In this document: piece by piece, positions 3,374-17,599 of the stretch
How positions within the stretch are numbered: the stretch's first letter is position 1
How the letters are laid out: the number at the start of each line of letters is the position of its first letter
Assembly: GCF_000380165.1 (NCBI RefSeq)
Contig: NZ_KB904713.1
Location: 45,639-109,638 of the forward strand
Direction of reading: 5' to 3'
Length of the DNA stretch: 64,000 nucleotides
DNA from: Wenjunlia vitaminophila DSM 41686
GTDB taxonomy: Bacteria; Actinomycetota; Actinomycetes; Streptomycetales; Streptomycetaceae
Position numbers and translations under genes: made by a program
The notes under the pieces: generated by a model
The model's database searches: none
Told to the model about the DNA's origin: nothing
What the model saw: the letters and a program-made list of their open reading frames with translations, nothing else

Positions 3374-3482
3374 GGACAGCCTCCGTATCGCTCGTCTGCC
3401 ATCATCTTTTCAGGGGAGTGACGCCGCTGGGTGGGGGGCTCGGTTCCCGGCGCCCAACCAGTACGGGGACGGCGCCGAATCC

Positions 3483-3512
3483 GCACCGACGCACCGACGC
3501 ACCGACGCACCG
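3483..3512. repeat. 8-bp tandem repeat (GCACCGAC, 3.75 copies)
   Basis: The unit GCACCGAC is repeated perfectly three times and followed by GCACCG within the 468-nt gap between the TM2 gene and topA. The rest of this gap (3374-3841) holds no credible gene and should carry both divergent promoters. Confidence 0.8.
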
Positions 3513-3770
3513 TCAGCGCCGGCTCCCCGGGCGTCGGTCCGGGCCGGTCGGCACGGCGCCCCGCCCCGTCCCGCGGTTCCCCGCCGCACCCGGAGGCGGC
3601 CGGTCGGGCTCCGTGGGCAGACCGGCGGGTCTCGGCCCCCGATCGCACATAAAGCCGATCTTAGACAATGTGTGTCTGTATGATGACGAATCGGACATGG
3701 GCGGCGGTCCGTGCGGCATGAATACCGGTTGTCGGGTTACCGTTCGAGTGGCGTTGTGGGCTTTTCCCGT

Positions 3771-3776
3771 TTGACA
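3771..3776 (+). promoter_or_regulatory. candidate -35 box for topA
   Basis: A consensus TTGACA lies 66 nt before the topA start in a relatively AT-rich patch. No convincing -10 box is found at 16-18 nt, so this is only a weak promoter candidate. A second AT-rich patch with TATGAT at 3679-3684 is an alternative. Confidence 0.25.
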
Positions 3777-3841
3777 CGGGGGGCTGGGTTACGGTCACAC
3801 TCCGCGACGTCACCCTTTTCGACCCGGAGAGAAGAGCGAAG

Positions 3842-6760
3842 TTGTCCCCGACCAGCGAGACCGCGCGCAACGGCCGCCGACTCGTCATCGTCGAGTCGCC
3901 GGCCAAGGCGAAGACGATCAAGGGCTACCTGGGCCCTGGCTACGTGGTCGAAGCCAGTGTGGGGCACATCCGCGACCTGCCCAACGGGGCCGCCGAAGTG
4001 CCCGCCAAGTACAAGAGCGAGCCGTGGGCCCGCCTCGGCGTGAACGTGGACCGGGACTTCGAGCCGATCTATGTCGTGAACAGCGACAAGAAGGCCCAGG
4101 TCACCAAGCTCAAGAGCCTGCTCGCCGACGCTGACGAGCTCTTCCTCGCCACGGACGAGGACCGCGAGGGCGAGGCGATCGCCTGGCACCTGCAGGAGGT
4201 GCTCAAGCCCAAGGTCCCGGTCCGCCGGATGGTCTTCCACGAGATCACCAAGGACGCGATCCAGCAGGCCGTCGCCAACCCGCGTGACCTGAACAAGCGT
4301 CTGGTGGACGCCCAGGAGACCCGTCGCATCCTGGACCGCCTCTACGGCTACGAGGTCTCCCCCGTGCTGTGGAAGAAGGTCATGCCGCGTCTCTCGGCGG
4401 GGCGGGTGCAGTCGGTGGCGACCCGCCTGGTGGTGGAGCGGGAGAGGGAGCGCATGGCGTTCACCTCCGCCGAGTACTGGGACCTGACGGCGACCTTCGC
4501 CACCGGTCGGGCCGGTGACGTCTCGGACCCCGGCACGTTCGGAGCCCGGCTGACCTCGGTGGACGGCACCCGGGTCGCCCAGGGCCGCGACTTCGGCCCC
4601 GACGGACGGCTCAAGTCCGCGGCGCGGGTGCTGCACCTGGACGAGCAGGCGGCCAGGGGGCTCGCCGCGGCCCTGCAGGGCGTGGAGTTCGGCGTGCGCG
4701 GGGTGGAGTCCAAGCCGTACCGCCGCAGCCCCTACGCGCCGTTCCGCACCACCACCCTGCAGCAGGAGGCGTCCCGCAAGCTGGGCTTCGGCGCCAAGCG
4801 CGCCATGCAGGTCGCGCAGCGGCTGTACGAGAACGGCCACATCACCTACATGCGGACCGACTCCACGACCCTCTCGGCGACCGCGGTGACGGCTGCGCGG
4901 GCGCAGGTGGAGCAGCTCTACGGCCGTGACTACCTGCCGGACGCGCCGCGCACCTACGCCGGCAAGGTGAAGAACGCCCAGGAGGCGCACGAGGCGATCC
5001 GTCCTTCGGGGGACCGTTTCCGCACCCCCGCCGAGACGGGTCTGTCCGGGGACGAGTTCCGGCTGTACGAGCTGATCTGGATGCGCACCGTCGCCTCCCA
5101 GATGAAGGACGCCGTGGGCCAGTCGGTGACGGTGCGGGTCGGCGGACGGACCGGGGACGGACGGGAAGCGGAGTTCTCCGCCTCCGGCAAGATCATCACC
5201 TTCCACGGCTTCCTGAAGGCGTACGTCGAGGGCCGGGACGACCCCGAGGCGGAGCTGGACGACCGGGAGCGCCGGCTGCCGCAGGTCACCGAGGGCGATG
5301 AGCTGACCGCGGACGCCATCACCGCCGACGGCCACTCCACCAAGCCCCCGGCCCGTTACACCGAGGCCAGCCTGGTCAAGGAGCTCGAGGAGCGGGAGAT
5401 CGGTCGCCCCTCCACCTACGCGACGATCCTGGGCACGATCCTGGACCGCGGCTACGTGTTCAAGAAGGGCACGGCCCTGGTCCCGTCGTTCCTGTCGTTC
5501 GCCGTCGTCGGGCTGCTGGAGAAGCACTTCGGCCGTCTGGTCGACTACGACTTCACCGCCCGGATGGAGGACGACCTCGACCGCATCGCCCGGGGCGAGG
5601 CGCAGGCCGTGCCGTGGCTGCGCCGCTTCTACTTCGGCACCGACCAGGAGGGGCCGGAGGCCGGCTCCGCCGCCGACGTGGCCGGTGACCACCTCGGCGG
5701 GCTCAAGGAACTGGTGACCGACCTGGGGGCGATCGACGCCCGCGAGGTCTCCTCGTTCCCCGTCGGGGACGGCATCGTGCTGCGGGTGGGCCGCTACGGC
5801 CCCTACGTCGAGAAGGGCGGCAAGGAGGGGCAGCGTGCCGACGTCCCGGACGACCTGCCGCCGGACGAGCTGACCGTCGAGCTCGCCGAGGAGCTGCTGG
5901 CCAAGCCGAGCGGCGACCGGCTGCTGGGCGAGGACCCGCGCACCGGGCGCCCGATCGTGGCCAAGGACGGGCGCTACGGGCCGTACGTCACCGAGGTGCT
6001 CCCCGAGGACACCCCCAAGACCGGCAAGCACGCCGTCAAGCCACGCACCGCGTCGCTGTTCAAGTCGATGGCACTGGACACGGTCACGCTCCAGGACGCG
6101 CTGAAGCTGTTCGACCTGCCGCGGGTGGTCGGGGTGGACCCGGCGTCCGGCGAGGAGATCACCGCGCAGAACGGGCGCTACGGCCCCTACCTGAAGAAGG
6201 GCACCGACTCCCGTTCGCTGCAGGACGAGGAGCAGCTCTTCACGGTGACGCTTGAGGAGGCGCTCGCCCTGTACGCGCAGCCCAAGCAGCGCGGACGGGC
6301 GGCGGCCAAGCCGCCGTTGAAGGAGCTGGGCAACGACCCGGTGACCCAGCGCCCCGTGGTGGTCAAGGACGGTCGCTTCGGCCCCTACGTCACCGACGGC
6401 GAGACCAACGCGACGCTGCGCCGGGACGACGACGTGGAGACGATCACGCCCGAGCGCGGCTACGAGCTGTTGGCGGAGAAGCGGGCCAAGGGGCCGGCCA
6501 AGAAGACGGTGAAGAAGGCCGCGGCCAAGAAGTCCACGGCCAAGAAGACGGCGACGAAGAAGACCGCCGCGAAGAAGACCACCCCGTCCACGGCCAAGAA
6601 GACCGCCGCCGCGAAGACGACGGCCAAGAAGGCACCCGCGAAGAAGTCCGCCGCGGGTGGGTCGGCGGCCAAGCGGGGGACCGCCAGGACCGCGGCCGCC
6701 GGGCGGAGCACCGCCAACGAGGTCGTCGTGCCCAGCTCGAAGGGGACGGACCCCCACTGA
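3842..6760 (+). CDS. topA: DNA topoisomerase I with lysine-rich tail
   Basis: 972-residue type IA topoisomerase that relaxes negative supercoils through a transient 5'-phosphotyrosine link. The Toprim domain opens with VIVESPAKAKTI and carries DEDREGEAIAWHL near residue 105. The active-site Tyr is Y336 in HITYMRTDS. Several C-terminal repeats of the DGRYGPYV type follow, and residues 885-950 are a histone-H1-like tail of KK(T/A)AAKK repeats seen in actinobacterial TopA, thought to add non-specific DNA binding and processivity. The start is TTG, supported by GGAGAGAAG just upstream and by alignment of VIVESPAKAKT near the N-terminus as usual. It lacks the zinc fingers of the E. coli enzyme. 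Confidence 0.97.
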   Translation: MSPTSETARNGRRLVIVESPAKAKTIKGYLGPGYVVEASVGHIRDLPNGAAEVPAKYKSEPWARLGVNVDRDFEPIYVVNSDKKAQVTKLKSLLADADELFLATDEDREGEAIAWHLQEVLKPKVPVRRMVFHEITKDAIQQAVANPRDLNKRLVDAQETRRILDRLYGYEVSPVLWKKVMPRLSAGRVQSVATRLVVERERERMAFTSAEYWDLTATFATGRAGDVSDPGTFGARLTSVDGTRVAQGRDFGPDGRLKSAARVLHLDEQAARGLAAALQGVEFGVRGVESKPYRRSPYAPFRTTTLQQEASRKLGFGAKRAMQVAQRLYENGHITYMRTDSTTLSATAVTAARAQVEQLYGRDYLPDAPRTYAGKVKNAQEAHEAIRPSGDRFRTPAETGLSGDEFRLYELIWMRTVASQMKDAVGQSVTVRVGGRTGDGREAEFSASGKIITFHGFLKAYVEGRDDPEAELDDRERRLPQVTEGDELTADAITADGHSTKPPARYTEASLVKELEEREIGRPSTYATILGTILDRGYVFKKGTALVPSFLSFAVVGLLEKHFGRLVDYDFTARMEDDLDRIARGEAQAVPWLRRFYFGTDQEGPEAGSAADVAGDHLGGLKELVTDLGAIDAREVSSFPVGDGIVLRVGRYGPYVEKGGKEGQRADVPDDLPPDELTVELAEELLAKPSGDRLLGEDPRTGRPIVAKDGRYGPYVTEVLPEDTPKTGKHAVKPRTASLFKSMALDTVTLQDALKLFDLPRVVGVDPASGEEITAQNGRYGPYLKKGTDSRSLQDEEQLFTVTLEEALALYAQPKQRGRAAAKPPLKELGNDPVTQRPVVVKDGRFGPYVTDGETNATLRRDDDVETITPERGYELLAEKRAKGPAKKTVKKAAAKKSTAKKTATKKTAAKKTTPSTAKKTAAAKTTAKKAPAKKSAAGGSAAKRGTARTAAAGRSTANEVVVPSSKGTDPH

Positions 6761-6839
6761 TCCGCACCCCCGGCGACTGTCGTCCGTTTGTTCGGCCAGC
6801 CCCCGACGGGAAGGAGTACGCGCCGGATAGGCTGGCGGA

Positions 6840-13926: not shown

Positions 13927-14073
13927 GTGTTGCTCGGGGCATGAGGCGCCACACTGCCACGACGCTGTGGAAGGGCTTGCGTGGGCGATGCGTGAGCGAC
14001 ACCGTCACCAAGGCATCCCGGCGCCCGCCGGCCCGATTCCTTGCTAGTTTCGCTCCGTTGCCAAGGAGGTCCA

Positions 14074-14931
14074 GTGTCGTCTTCCCTGTCCACCAGAGCC
14101 CCAGTGGATCTGCGGATTGAACCCGTTGACCGTGTGCTGGACGAGGTCGAGCGTGCCCTTCAAACGCAGTTGGACAGAGGGACGCTGGTGCGGAAGCGGC
14201 GGTCGCTGGGGGCGCGTACAGACCGTGGTACGTGGGTACGGGTTGAGCGGCGCCGCTTCGACAAGATCGGTGGCCAGGGCTGGAACGGCACCGAATGCGC
14301 TGCCCTCCTAGAGGGAGTGGCCAGGCCGCAGTGGCACCGAGGCGCCGCTTGGAGACAGCCTGGGGACACTGTGATGTGGCGGGCCGACGAGACGGATCTC
14401 CTGCCCGGAGCGCCGATCGGCAGCAGTGTCCTGGCTACCGAACCCGTGCTGTCGGACCAGTGGTGGCAGGCGTTCAATGCGTCGCTGGATGCCCTGGCCG
14501 AGCAGCATACGAGCCGCGTCGCCACCCCGGACACTGTGATGATCACGCAGAGCGGTGTCGCCGAGGCGATCCACCGCTTTCTCCGCAACGGTGTCGACAC
14601 GACGGTGGAACAGTGGCTGCCGGCACACGCGGATCTCAATTGGGCGAACATGACCGGGCCGGAGTTCTGCCTGTTCGACTGGGAGGACTGGGGCGTGGCC
14701 CCTCAAGGGCTGGATGCCGCGTCGCTGTGGGGCAGTTCCCTCGCCGTCCCGGCCCTGGCAGAGCGAGTCCGCCACGAGCGGCGCCGCGATCTGGAGAGCC
14801 GGGACGGCAAGCTGATGACCTTGTTCGTCTGCGCGAAGATCCTGGCCCCGGACGCCCATCCCGAGGACCCTCGCCTTGAACCCGCACGCGTCATGGCCGA
14901 GGAAGTCGCGGAGGATCTTCAGAGCGACTGA
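14074..14931 (+). CDS. APH-fold phosphotransferase-like protein
   Basis: 285-residue protein of the aminoglycoside/choline kinase fold. The GTG at 14074 is taken as start because AAGGAGGT lies at 14063-14070. The C-terminal half carries the APH signature: the catalytic loop HADLNWANMTG (Brenner-type motif, His/Asp/Asn) and a metal-binding CLFDWEDWG that replaces the usual IDWE/IDFG. The N-terminal lobe is divergent and the ATP-binding Lys is not obvious. It is the first gene after the tRNA and converges with the aldo/keto reductase gene, overlapping by 13 nt. A small-molecule kinase is the default call. APH-like kinases also act on RiPP precursors in class V lanthipeptide systems, so a link to the nearby peptide gene is possible but unproven. 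Confidence 0.75.
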   Translation: MSSSLSTRAPVDLRIEPVDRVLDEVERALQTQLDRGTLVRKRRSLGARTDRGTWVRVERRRFDKIGGQGWNGTECAALLEGVARPQWHRGAAWRQPGDTVMWRADETDLLPGAPIGSSVLATEPVLSDQWWQAFNASLDALAEQHTSRVATPDTVMITQSGVAEAIHRFLRNGVDTTVEQWLPAHADLNWANMTGPEFCLFDWEDWGVAPQGLDAASLWGSSLAVPALAERVRHERRRDLESRDGKLMTLFVCAKILAPDAHPEDPRLEPARVMAEEVAEDLQSD

Positions 14932-15779
14932 CGATCTCGCTGTTCACGGAGAAGGCGACGGTAGGTACTGAGATTGTCTGCATCGGCTTCGTATCGCAGG
15001 GCGTCGACGAGTTCCCCGAGGTGCGAGGGGGTGTCCGTACCGACGGCGATCCTTCCCACCCTCGGCAGCCAGTAGGCCACACGGAATGTGGCCTGCACGG
15101 CCGATAGGCCGTCGTGTGGTTCCTGGATGAACACCCGTGGGTCCAACTCGTCCCACAGCGACTGCGCAGTACTGCCCCCGAAAGGGCTCATGCCCCAGAG
15201 CTGGTCCGGGACGAGGTCCCAGCGGGCCGCCAACGCTTCGGAGGCTTTCAGGACATCGATTCCGGCGAGGAGTCCCGCACGGACCATGACAGCATCGGGT
15301 CTGGGCAGGGTGGCATCCACGAGACCGGGCAATGGGCGGGGGTCCCATGAGGAAATGCCCCAGCCTCCGCACAGTCCCTTGGCCGCCGCCTTCTCCACGG
15401 CAGCGCATGCCGTACCGAGCCTGTCCCGGGCGGCTTCCGAGGAGCCGGTCAGCGACCGCTCCGGATTGTGGAGGAACACCAGATCCGGGGCGCGCCCCAA
15501 GTCGCGATTGCTCTGCTCCACGGCTTCCCGGAGACGATCGGGATCGAGAGAGTGCTCGACCCGGCCAACGGCCGGGAAGAAGCCGACCTTGGTGGAGAGC
15601 TTGAAGCGGGGGAGGATGTCGCGTCCAGCGCCCGCCAAGGCGGTGTGAGCGGAGAAGCTGTGGTAGTTGAAGCTGGTGTCGATCGCGTCGACACCGAGTT
15701 CCAGGGCGCTGGTCAGGATCCGGCGCTCGTAGCGAGACCGGTGTAACCCGAGAACAATTCGGGGGTCAGACCCGCGCAC
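14919..15779 (-). CDS. aldo/keto reductase
   Basis: 286-residue AKR-superfamily TIM-barrel oxidoreductase, expected to use NADPH to reduce a carbonyl. The catalytic tetrad can be traced: Asp and Tyr in DAIDTSFNYHSF, Lys in KLSTKVGFF, His in VFLHNPERS. The C-terminal cofactor-binding region is shorter and less typical (RIAVGTDTPSHLGELVDAL). The GTG at 15779 has a strong GGAGGAGGAG just upstream and lies 67 nt inside the end of the JmjC gene, so translation is probably coupled. It belongs with the JmjC and peptide genes in one minus-strand operon, where it would be a tailoring enzyme (inference). Confidence 0.85.
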   Translation of the reverse strand: MRGSDPRIVLGLHRSRYERRILTSALELGVDAIDTSFNYHSFSAHTALAGAGRDILPRFKLSTKVGFFPAVGRVEHSLDPDRLREAVEQSNRDLGRAPDLVFLHNPERSLTGSSEAARDRLGTACAAVEKAAAKGLCGGWGISSWDPRPLPGLVDATLPRPDAVMVRAGLLAGIDVLKASEALAARWDLVPDQLWGMSPFGGSTAQSLWDELDPRVFIQEPHDGLSAVQATFRVAYWLPRVGRIAVGTDTPSHLGELVDALRYEADADNLSTYRRLLREQRDRQSL

Positions 15780-16924
15780 AGCTCCTCCTCCACCAGGATC
15801 TTCGCCAGTGCCTCCACCTCGGCGCCCACCAGTCGAGCAGCCTCATCCAGCCGCACGGGGTGGCCGCTCAGGAGCAAGCGGAGCCCCGGCAGAGCCTTGG
15901 CCACGAAGGTGAGCTTCTTGCCCGCAGCCACCACGACGACTGCCTCTCCGTCCTGCGTGATCAAGGGCGGGAACTCGCTGACGCACGCCACGGCTTCAAG
16001 CGGGCCGAAGATGTCGAGGAACGGGACGTGGCGTCCAGGAGGAGCTTCCTGCTCACGGAGCCGAAGGAACTGTGCCGGGTCGCGGGCGTCGATGAGCTGG
16101 GAGGCCGCGGCGGTCAGCGATAGCCGCTGGGCCTGCTGTTCCTCGGGGCTGCCCCAGCGATCGAGGTCGTGGCGGAACACCTCGTCCTGCCGGGACCAGT
16201 CGGCGAGCCAGGTGAGCCAGCTCACGGCGGTGCGCTTCGCGAAGCCGAACGTCACGTGGGTGCTGTGACCGCGGCCGTGGCCCACGCGGGTGGCCGCATG
16301 CCAGTAGCCACGGGGGATATGCATCACGTCTCCGGCCCTCATGGTGCCGATCCACACGATCTCTTCGCTGGGGGTGTTGTTCCGCTCAGCGTCTCGGAAC
16401 ATCGGTACGGGACGGGAGGCACCGCGTACCTCCCATTGTTTCTCGCCGGCGAGCTGCACGATGAGGACGTCGTGGTCGTCCCAGTGCAAGTCGAAGCCGG
16501 ACGCGTCATTCGTGGTCAGGTAGACGTTCGCCTGCACGTGCTCCCGGGACCACCACTGCATGGCCCGGCACGCCACTTCCATCGTGGGATCGAAGACGTT
16601 CGACTGGTCCAGGACCAGCGTCGCTCCCTCGCGCAGCAGGCTGCCCACACGGCGCATGTCCGCTATCGGTATCGCCTGCCCCCGCGGCGTGACTTGCCGG
16701 TTCAGATAGGCGTCGGGGTGCAGCTCCTTACCACCCTTGAAGAGCCGGAACTGCGGGTTGGCCAAGCTCCGGCGCATGACCATGTCCAGCATCCGCGAAG
16801 GCGTGAGCAGCCTCTCCAGGACTTCGCGGTCGCTGACGCTTCCGCGGGCGAACTCCCTCCCGAGCAGGGCGGCGCCGTCCCACCCAAGTGCCTCTTCGAC
16901 AGCGCGGACCAAACGGTGCTCCAC
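15713..16924 (-). CDS. JmjC/cupin-type Fe(II)/2-oxoglutarate oxygenase (RiPP-tailoring candidate)
   Basis: 403-residue protein of the cupin-4/JmjC hydroxylase class (ROXA/MINA53/YcfD-like), which hydroxylates peptide or protein side chains. The metal site is visible: H147-x-D149 in FDLHWDDHDVL and a distal His at the HIPRGYWH motif (H202 or H209), with a VQLAGEKQWEV strand typical of the family. A C-terminal winged-helix-like region follows. I prefer the GTG at 16924, preceded by AGGAGGGAGAAG, over a GTG 30 nt upstream that lacks a ribosome site. It lies 85 nt after the small peptide gene, separated from it by a hairpin, and overlaps the aldo/keto reductase gene. Modification of that peptide is inferred from position. 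Confidence 0.8.
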   Translation of the reverse strand: MEHRLVRAVEEALGWDGAALLGREFARGSVSDREVLERLLTPSRMLDMVMRRSLANPQFRLFKGGKELHPDAYLNRQVTPRGQAIPIADMRRVGSLLREGATLVLDQSNVFDPTMEVACRAMQWWSREHVQANVYLTTNDASGFDLHWDDHDVLIVQLAGEKQWEVRGASRPVPMFRDAERNNTPSEEIVWIGTMRAGDVMHIPRGYWHAATRVGHGRGHSTHVTFGFAKRTAVSWLTWLADWSRQDEVFRHDLDRWGSPEEQQAQRLSLTAAASQLIDARDPAQFLRLREQEAPPGRHVPFLDIFGPLEAVACVSEFPPLITQDGEAVVVVAAGKKLTFVAKALPGLRLLLSGHPVRLDEAARLVGAEVEALAKILVEEELCAGLTPELFSGYTGLATSAGS

Positions 16925-16965
16925 GATTCGCTTCTCCCTCCTTGCGTCAGACACGGGACCTGGGA

Positions 16966-16996
16966 GGCGGAGGGGCCGGTACGCTGCCCCTCCGCC
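16966..16996 (-). terminator. hairpin between peptide gene and JmjC gene (attenuator-like)
   Basis: A perfect 11-bp inverted repeat (GGCGGAGGGGC / GCCCCTCCGCC) with a 9-nt loop starts 13 nt after the stop of the peptide gene and ends before the JmjC start. Hairpins in this position in precursor-first operons let the peptide transcript outnumber the enzyme transcript; that role is inferred. Confidence 0.6.
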
Positions 16997-17009
16997 AGAG
17001 AACTGGCGG

Positions 17010-17171
17010 CTACGCCGCGTGGTTCAGCCCGTCTCCGCCAGGCCAGGGGCCGTCACCGGACGAGCCCTGCCCAGGGTCGGAGGCGTTGCTGTCGTGCCGG
17101 TCATGGACGCTCGTGAGGACTTCCACGGCGACCAGGAGGCCTGCCTCGACGGAGGGCTTCTTGTCTTCCAC
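17010..17171 (-). CDS. 53-residue peptide, candidate RiPP precursor
   Basis: A short gene that standard ORF calling misses. It starts with GTG at 17171, six nt after a perfect AAGGAG, and ends with TAG at 17010. The N-terminal part is MEDKKPSVEAGLLVAVEVL: acidic/basic, then a hydrophobic helix, as in RiPP leaders. The second part, TSVHDRHDSNASDPGQGSS then GDGPWPGGDGLNHAA, is polar and rich in Gly, Asp, Ser, His and Pro with one Trp and no Cys. His, Asp and Arg side chains in VHDRHD are the kind of residues JmjC-type hydroxylases modify. It is followed by a hairpin and then the JmjC and aldo/keto reductase genes on the same strand. No known precursor family was recognised, so RiPP is an inference. 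Confidence 0.6.
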   Translation of the reverse strand: MEDKKPSVEAGLLVAVEVLTSVHDRHDSNASDPGQGSSGDGPWPGGDGLNHAA

Positions 17172-17196
17172 TTCGTGCTCCTTCCCCTACCGGTCT

Positions 17197-17214
17197 CCCG
17201 CCGGTTCCGGCGGG
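17197..17214 (-). promoter_or_regulatory. perfect palindrome in the leader of the peptide gene
   Basis: CCCGCCGG and CCGGCGGG with a 2-nt centre (TT on the plus strand) form an 18-bp palindrome that ends 14 nt before the AAGGAG of the peptide gene. It could be an operator or an mRNA hairpin that controls translation. Confidence 0.35.
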
Positions 17215-17326: not shown

Positions 17327-17599
17327 TCAGTGCCGGCGCAGGAATCCGCCGCGCGCTCGGTGCCCACCTCCGCGGTGGCCGCCCGACGGCTCTGCTTCAG
17401 GTGCAACTTCGACTTGCGCGGACCTGGCCGACCCATCGCTGAGAAGGATGCACTGCCAGACCTGGTCCTGAAGTATCCGGATGCACGGCCCGCAGGCGTA
17501 CATCGGCGCCCGGGTGCCACCCACGCTCATGTTCCAGAACACGAGGCGACCCCCGAGATCATTTGGAAAGGGCAGCCACGGCGCTCTGGTCCACAGCAT
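17327..17599 (-). CDS. small hypothetical ORF, doubtful
   Basis: A 90-codon reading frame upstream of the peptide gene on the same strand. A shorter form could begin at an internal ATG (MSVGGTRAPMYACGPCIRI...). The stretch YACGPCIRILQDQVW has a CxxC pair and looks protein-like, but the C-terminal third is Gly/Arg low-complexity and no good ribosome site is seen. The rest of the 17172-17816 gap shows nothing else convincing; the promoter of the peptide operon should lie here. Confidence 0.25.
   Translation of the reverse strand: MLWTRAPWLPFPNDLGGRLVFWNMSVGGTRAPMYACGPCIRILQDQVWQCILLSDGSARSAQVEVAPEAEPSGGHRGGGHRARGGFLRRH

Follow-up and report, generated by a model that had tools for sequence, protein, structure and literature searches.

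JmjC oxygenases and APH-like kinases have both been described in RiPP pathways, the former as BipG, a JmjC enzyme that hydroxylates ornithine in a RiPP (PMC12707348), and the latter as CaoK, which phosphorylates a RiPP precursor (PMC9486802). In addition, RRE-like domains fused to PF08007 JmjC proteins have been reported, with a passing mention of bacterial homologues in 'RiPP-like genomic contexts' in the part of the paper accessible to us (Bregman et al. 2025; PMC12710340). Apart from this brief mention, the RiPP literature found presents JmjC oxygenases only as biphenomycin-type tailoring enzymes, and no RiPP combining a JmjC oxygenase, an aldo/keto reductase (AKR) and a kinase was found in it. 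The locus described here lies in a window of 64,000 nucleotides from Wenjunlia vitaminophila DSM 41686 (contig NZ_KB904713.1, positions 45,639 to 109,638; coordinates below are those of the window unless a locus is named). Judging from its sequence it is probably a RiPP-type maturation locus, the chemistry of which we infer. Its features are the following:

14041..14931, plus strand: predicted APH-fold kinase, convergent with the AKR gene and overlapping its 3' end by 13 bp; weak PF01636 match, catalytic residues invariant
14919..15779, minus strand: AKR, PF00248, with a 67-bp overlap with the JmjC gene; tetrad conserved
15713..16924, minus strand: ROX-type JmjC_2 Fe(II)/2OG oxygenase of 403 aa, PF08007; triad invariant, AF2 pLDDT 94.5
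15770..15964, minus strand: putative RRE-like winged helix (beta3-alpha3) at the C-terminus of the JmjC protein, from model secondary structure, a sub-threshold PqqD match and a leader strand in a fused prediction
16966..16996, minus strand: GC-rich hairpin without a T-run; across 10 relatives pairing holds in 98% of cells, with a single compensatory pair
17010..17171, minus strand: 53-aa precursor-like peptide VEDKKPSVEAGLLVAVEVLTSVHDRHDSNASDPGQGSSGDGPWPGGDGLNHAA, with in-frame homologues beside JmjC genes; R25 and D32 invariant, dN/dS 0.20
17178..17183, minus strand: ribosome-binding site AAGGAG, 6 nt upstream of the GTG, read directly

The small gene had been put forward in a first-pass annotation as a 53-codon frame behind a perfect AAGGAG, and direct reading bears this out: the frame opens with GTG at 17171 and its stop ends at 17010. 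A JmjC-based scan returned 77 relatives, and an in-frame peptide stands upstream of nearly all actinobacterial JmjC genes among them (contigs cut near the gene were set aside), with a GGAG-type ribosome-binding site at the equivalent place. The homologous peptides, 37-64 aa long and encoded before nearly every related JmjC gene in actinobacteria and one planctomycete, follow the pattern LLVAVExLxxVxDR....SD...GD...GDGLN, in which R25 and D32 are the sole invariant positions across 39 aligned sequences. No curated family in Pfam or NCBIfam covers them. Among 12 close Streptomyces sequences the overall dN/dS of 0.20 resolves into 0.76 at the N-terminus, 0.16 for residues 9-30 and 0.083 for residues 31-53, the core; the peptide is under purifying selection, and this is strongest in the core. 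A frame decaying by its synonymous/non-synonymous ratio, the pattern that the annotation had named as fatal to its proposal, is not seen, and the homologous small ORF beside JmjC genes of other actinobacteria that it had suggested looking for is present, conserved leader included. Its picture of a conserved leader with a variable core holds for the leader, but the core is kept within clades and differs between clades rather than being hypervariable. Two observations concern individual small frames. The peptide at locus L039 of Streptomyces sp. AcH 505 (4733-6197) departs from the family in its C-terminal part and looks frameshifted, and the locus lacks both AKR and kinase, which gives the impression of a joint decay of peptide and partners. 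Upstream of the window peptide, at 17327-17599 on the minus strand, a further small ORF (MYACGPCI...LQDQVW) is conserved across roughly twelve Streptomyces-type loci.

Because the peptide profile had been derived from JmjC-linked loci, the reverse search was run with the profile alone against 395 actinomycete genomes. It marked 32 places in 26 genomes; 26 of these adjoin a JmjC gene of the same family and three adjoin AKR and/or kinase only, while the last three (L099, L102, L104) are borderline matches without system genes nearby and were taken as chance. The linkage holds in both directions: retrieval by JmjC leads to the peptide, and the peptide alone leads to JmjC or AKR/kinase loci. A short, genetically encoded precursor under selection and linked to modifying enzymes is the general mark of a RiPP, and this is what the locus presents. 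The earlier proposal of a candidate RiPP system is supported at the level of sequence by the conserved precursor, the two-way linkage and dN/dS. One point against it is that the core varies less than in many RiPPs.

Peptide, JmjC, AKR and kinase form the most common set, and in the planctomycete locus all four genes stand in a row. The AKR (PF00248, E 1.5e-14) retains its tetrad D34, Y39, K64 and H104 in 42/42 sequences, and its gene is co-directional with that of the JmjC oxygenase and overlaps it, as annotated. The plus-strand product has a weak PF01636 match (E 0.0086), and H196, D198, N203 and D213 are invariant in 59/59 sequences, forming HxD....N and D-W motifs; weak Pfam matches and invariant motifs together argue for an APH-fold kinase, of which no solved relative was found by sequence. 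The original two-enzyme description is correct as to JmjC and AKR but incomplete, since it missed a fourth member, an APH-type kinase that some loci replace by a Suc_Fer-like protein. Among 102 JmjC loci the partner is a kinase, on either strand, in 65 and a Suc_Fer-like protein in 32, and the two never occur together. The upstream HAD hydrolase (P0004) was dropped as a member because outside close Streptomyces it does not adjoin the locus.

The system varies beyond this set. The genome of W. vitaminophila itself holds a second, divergent peptide-JmjC-AKR-kinase set on another contig (C53, about 3388-6800), with the core ESDGGGTGRSDGND. Three loci (L109-L111) have a peptide without an adjacent JmjC gene and a peptide-JmjC locus elsewhere in the same genome, and here one JmjC enzyme may serve two peptides. 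Small ORFs that are rich in Asp and Gly and often repetitive (e.g. EGTADGGSNPEGHDGGADG) precede the more distant JmjC genes of actinobacteria (L133-L144), which have Suc_Fer-like genes beside them; such repeat peptides, present in many other actinobacterial genomes, possibly represent a still larger precursor family. Several sets (L145-L159) reside on large actinobacterial plasmids, some of them mobilizable, and some of the AKR-less plasmid sets have a core without Ser before Asp. In one plasmid relative (L150, 1-4212) the small ORF and JmjC come directly after an M16-type peptidase gene, a neighbouring gene of unknown annotation and an MFS gene; the ORF, 51 aa long, does not resemble the main family, and the locus has neither AKR nor kinase. 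L150 is the only locus with an M16-type peptidase and MFS gene: a dedicated protease or exporter was found neither at the window locus nor as a conserved neighbour, which counts against a RiPP, although such genes are a frequent rather than an obligatory part of RiPP loci. An IMG/VR contig (L149) carries JmjC and two kinase genes, probably as bacterial flank. None of the locus proteins is represented in PADLOC.

These data bear on the possibility that the peptide is the precursor of a cofactor or signal in the manner of PQQ or mycofactocin, a small conserved molecule being carved from the core to serve the producer without secretion. The tighter constraint on core than on leader within a clade (dN/dS 0.083 vs 0.16) agrees with this, as does the lack of a conserved exporter among the neighbours, and the AKR suggests redox chemistry. 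However, cores vary much between clades, also in repeat number, and the sporadic spread (26/395 genomes) together with plasmid carriage suits an accessory product better, so that we consider a cofactor or signal unlikely.

The core motif appears to follow the partner, being DG(S/T)D-rich where the Suc_Fer-like protein replaces the kinase. The corresponding motif test gave 28/29 vs 6/63 for a pattern picked after viewing the sequences and with ancestry ignored, and the only clean contrast is offered by Frankia. Its JmjC branches within the kinase clade, fully supported, but its partner is Suc_Fer-like and its core reads SDSDGSDG or a like form, i.e. a DGSD core; this switch is the best single argument, at the level of sequence, that core and second enzyme would belong together. 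A similar association concerns the Ser before D32, which is present in 65/66 AKR-positive loci and absent in 13/20 AKR-negative ones (65:1 vs 7:13). It was set aside as firm evidence, since only about four independent AKR changes underlie it (4 pairs, p 0.25), and is a lead only.

The acidobacterial precursors bear on which residue the JmjC enzyme would oxygenate. They resemble the window peptide in the leader (SGLLLSVEPL); otherwise they and other Suc_Fer-type precursors have little in common with it besides Asp-richness, which counts against the RiPP reading. Because they have no Arg equivalent to R25 but many Asp-Gly (SDGTD-type), Asp is favoured over Arg as the probable target. Hydroxylation of Arg25 within the same RiPP-type system, comparable to the action of YcfD on Arg, would accord with the invariance of this residue in 39/39 aligned peptides. 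It is nevertheless decidedly unlikely, given that related acidobacterial JmjC enzymes have SDGTD-type precursors without that Arg and that R25 sits in the leader-like part, near the docked strand described below. Kim et al. reportedly described conversion of Asp to aminomalonate in 2025, and work by Xia et al. of the same year is said to concern alpha-KG macrocyclisation in RiPPs; both are possibly relevant.

The JmjC gene ends at 15713, matches PF08007 (JmjC_2) with E 4e-21, and GTG 16924, after which relatives also read VEHRLV..., is a better start for it than 16954. The enzyme is intact, with the metal triad H147-x-D149...H209 invariant, and its AF2 model finds NO66 as the best solved match (Z 23.8), followed by MINA53 (Z 22.3) and YcfD-type hydroxylases (Z about 19); it combines the HxD...H triad with the ROX fold, as a ROX-type JmjC enzyme does. 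At locus L124 (4623-7048) the JmjC match is split by about 1.2 kb, perhaps by an insertion. The gene context suggests the peptide rather than a ribosomal protein as substrate. As to the C-terminal domain, one acidobacterial homologue has a weak, sub-threshold PqqD match (E 0.0013) and another a sub-threshold match to a ROXA-like winged helix. In a relative whose peptide and JmjC genes lie in one reading frame (L008) the intervening stop was read as Gly and the fused chain predicted, a modelling device that makes no claim about translation. Peptide residues 11-20 reach a mean pLDDT of 92, with a strand at 13-18 (LIAVEA), whereas residues 25-76, core and linker, stay below 50. A confident strand within a disordered tail suggests that the leader may dock on the enzyme, as leaders do on RREs; since a winged helix at the C-terminus is general among ROX proteins, the case for an RRE comes chiefly from this one artificial fusion model.

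ROX enzymes normally hydroxylate proteins, and the peptide could accordingly be a small stable protein that retains its leader and regulates a cell process through its hydroxylation or phosphorylation. The nearest solved folds, NO66, MINA53 and YcfD, speak for this, as does the lack of a protease at the locus. The core, however, is rich in Asp, Gly and Ser and expanded to repeats in Suc_Fer-type loci, and in the fused prediction the leader alone is ordered and the remainder disordered, which makes a stable protein improbable.

The hairpin reported after the peptide gene is indeed there: 16986-16996 pairs with 16966-16976. In most actinobacterial loci the stop of the peptide gene is followed by a stable stem despite unrelated sequences (median z -2.9 across 62 loci, 42 of them below -2; z only -1.8 for the window's own hairpin), and within the closest ten sequences one pair is altered on both sides. 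The stem is absent in Frankia and in short-gap loci, some of which have only 7-14 nt between the genes. An expression step between precursor and enzymes is common in RiPP operons, and the hairpin fits such a step. That the small ORF is instead a regulatory upstream ORF, an attenuator whose sequence is irrelevant beyond the hairpin directly 3' of it, is hardly credible, as its amino-acid conservation and dN/dS already contradict it at the level of codon pattern, some loci have a 7-14 nt gap without a hairpin, and the peptide also occurs with AKR/kinase alone.

The RiPP-type maturation pathway would then run as follows. The 53-aa peptide would be the precursor, and the operon-internal hairpin probably keeps its level above that of the enzymes. 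The leader segment LLVAVE is predicted in silico to join the RRE-like winged helix of the JmjC enzyme as an added beta-strand, and the enzyme would oxygenate the core, with the invariant Asp32 and further Asp residues in the (S)D/GDG motifs as the likeliest sites. The AKR may perform a redox step next to Asp32, possibly on the preceding Ser, and the APH-fold kinase may phosphorylate Ser/Thr of the peptide or the newly made hydroxyl, or protect the producer. In other lineages the Suc_Fer-like iron-sulfur protein stands in for the kinase, and the core is DG(S/T)D-rich. Leader removal and export would fall to enzymes encoded elsewhere. A broader reading, which we offer only tentatively, is that of a widespread RiPP class. 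Its maturase, a ROX-type JmjC protein uniting catalytic domain and RRE, would be self-contained and oxygenate Asp-rich cores, and two interchangeable second steps, APH kinase usually with AKR or the Suc_Fer-like protein, would each go with a core motif of their own. On this reading a large family of peptide maturases would share one design of peptide recognition with the eukaryotic and bacterial ROX oxygenases.

If the system is what it appears to be, a peptide-maturation pathway that many actinobacteria have, and that extends to Acidobacteria and a planctomycete, is obscured by present annotation: the precursor is often unannotated, and the enzymes are labelled 'cupin', 'aldo/keto reductase' or 'hypothetical'. 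The exchange of kinase for Suc_Fer-like partner would provide a natural comparison for assigning chemical steps, ROX-type oxygenases would gain a testable substrate, and an HMM and motif are ready for genome mining.

Precursor family, four-gene system and partner switch were not found described in the literature, and we regard the locus as a candidate for a new RiPP class. The proposal of a new system is supported as far as precursor family and locus are concerned; the oxygenase type was not wholly unsuspected. The RRE-JmjC fusions share PF08007 and, putatively, an RRE-like domain with the locus; the precursor family, partner genes, motif and distribution were not found in the accessible part of that paper (PMC12710340). 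Class V lanthipeptides and thioamitides (CaoK, LxmK, TvaC) likewise have an APH-family kinase beside a small precursor, but the genome has no HopA1 match and the peptide no Cys. Biphenomycin-type RiPPs, with the JmjC or cupin hydroxylases BipG, BpmG and PbsQ, also employ a JmjC-type Fe/2OG oxygenase on a ribosomal precursor (PMC12707348, PMC12257519). There the hydroxylase is a tailoring enzyme that works alongside MNIO, arginase and B12-radical-SAM enzymes, and the core is FRF, a motif found neither in the window peptide nor in its 38 aligned homologues; in the present system the only constant enzyme is JmjC, accompanied by AKR and kinase, and the core is rich in Asp and Gly. With the ROX ribosomal oxygenases NO66, MINA53 and YcfD, finally, the window enzyme shares fold, metal triad and C-terminal winged helix, but unlike them it is encoded with a dedicated small peptide, an AKR and a kinase.
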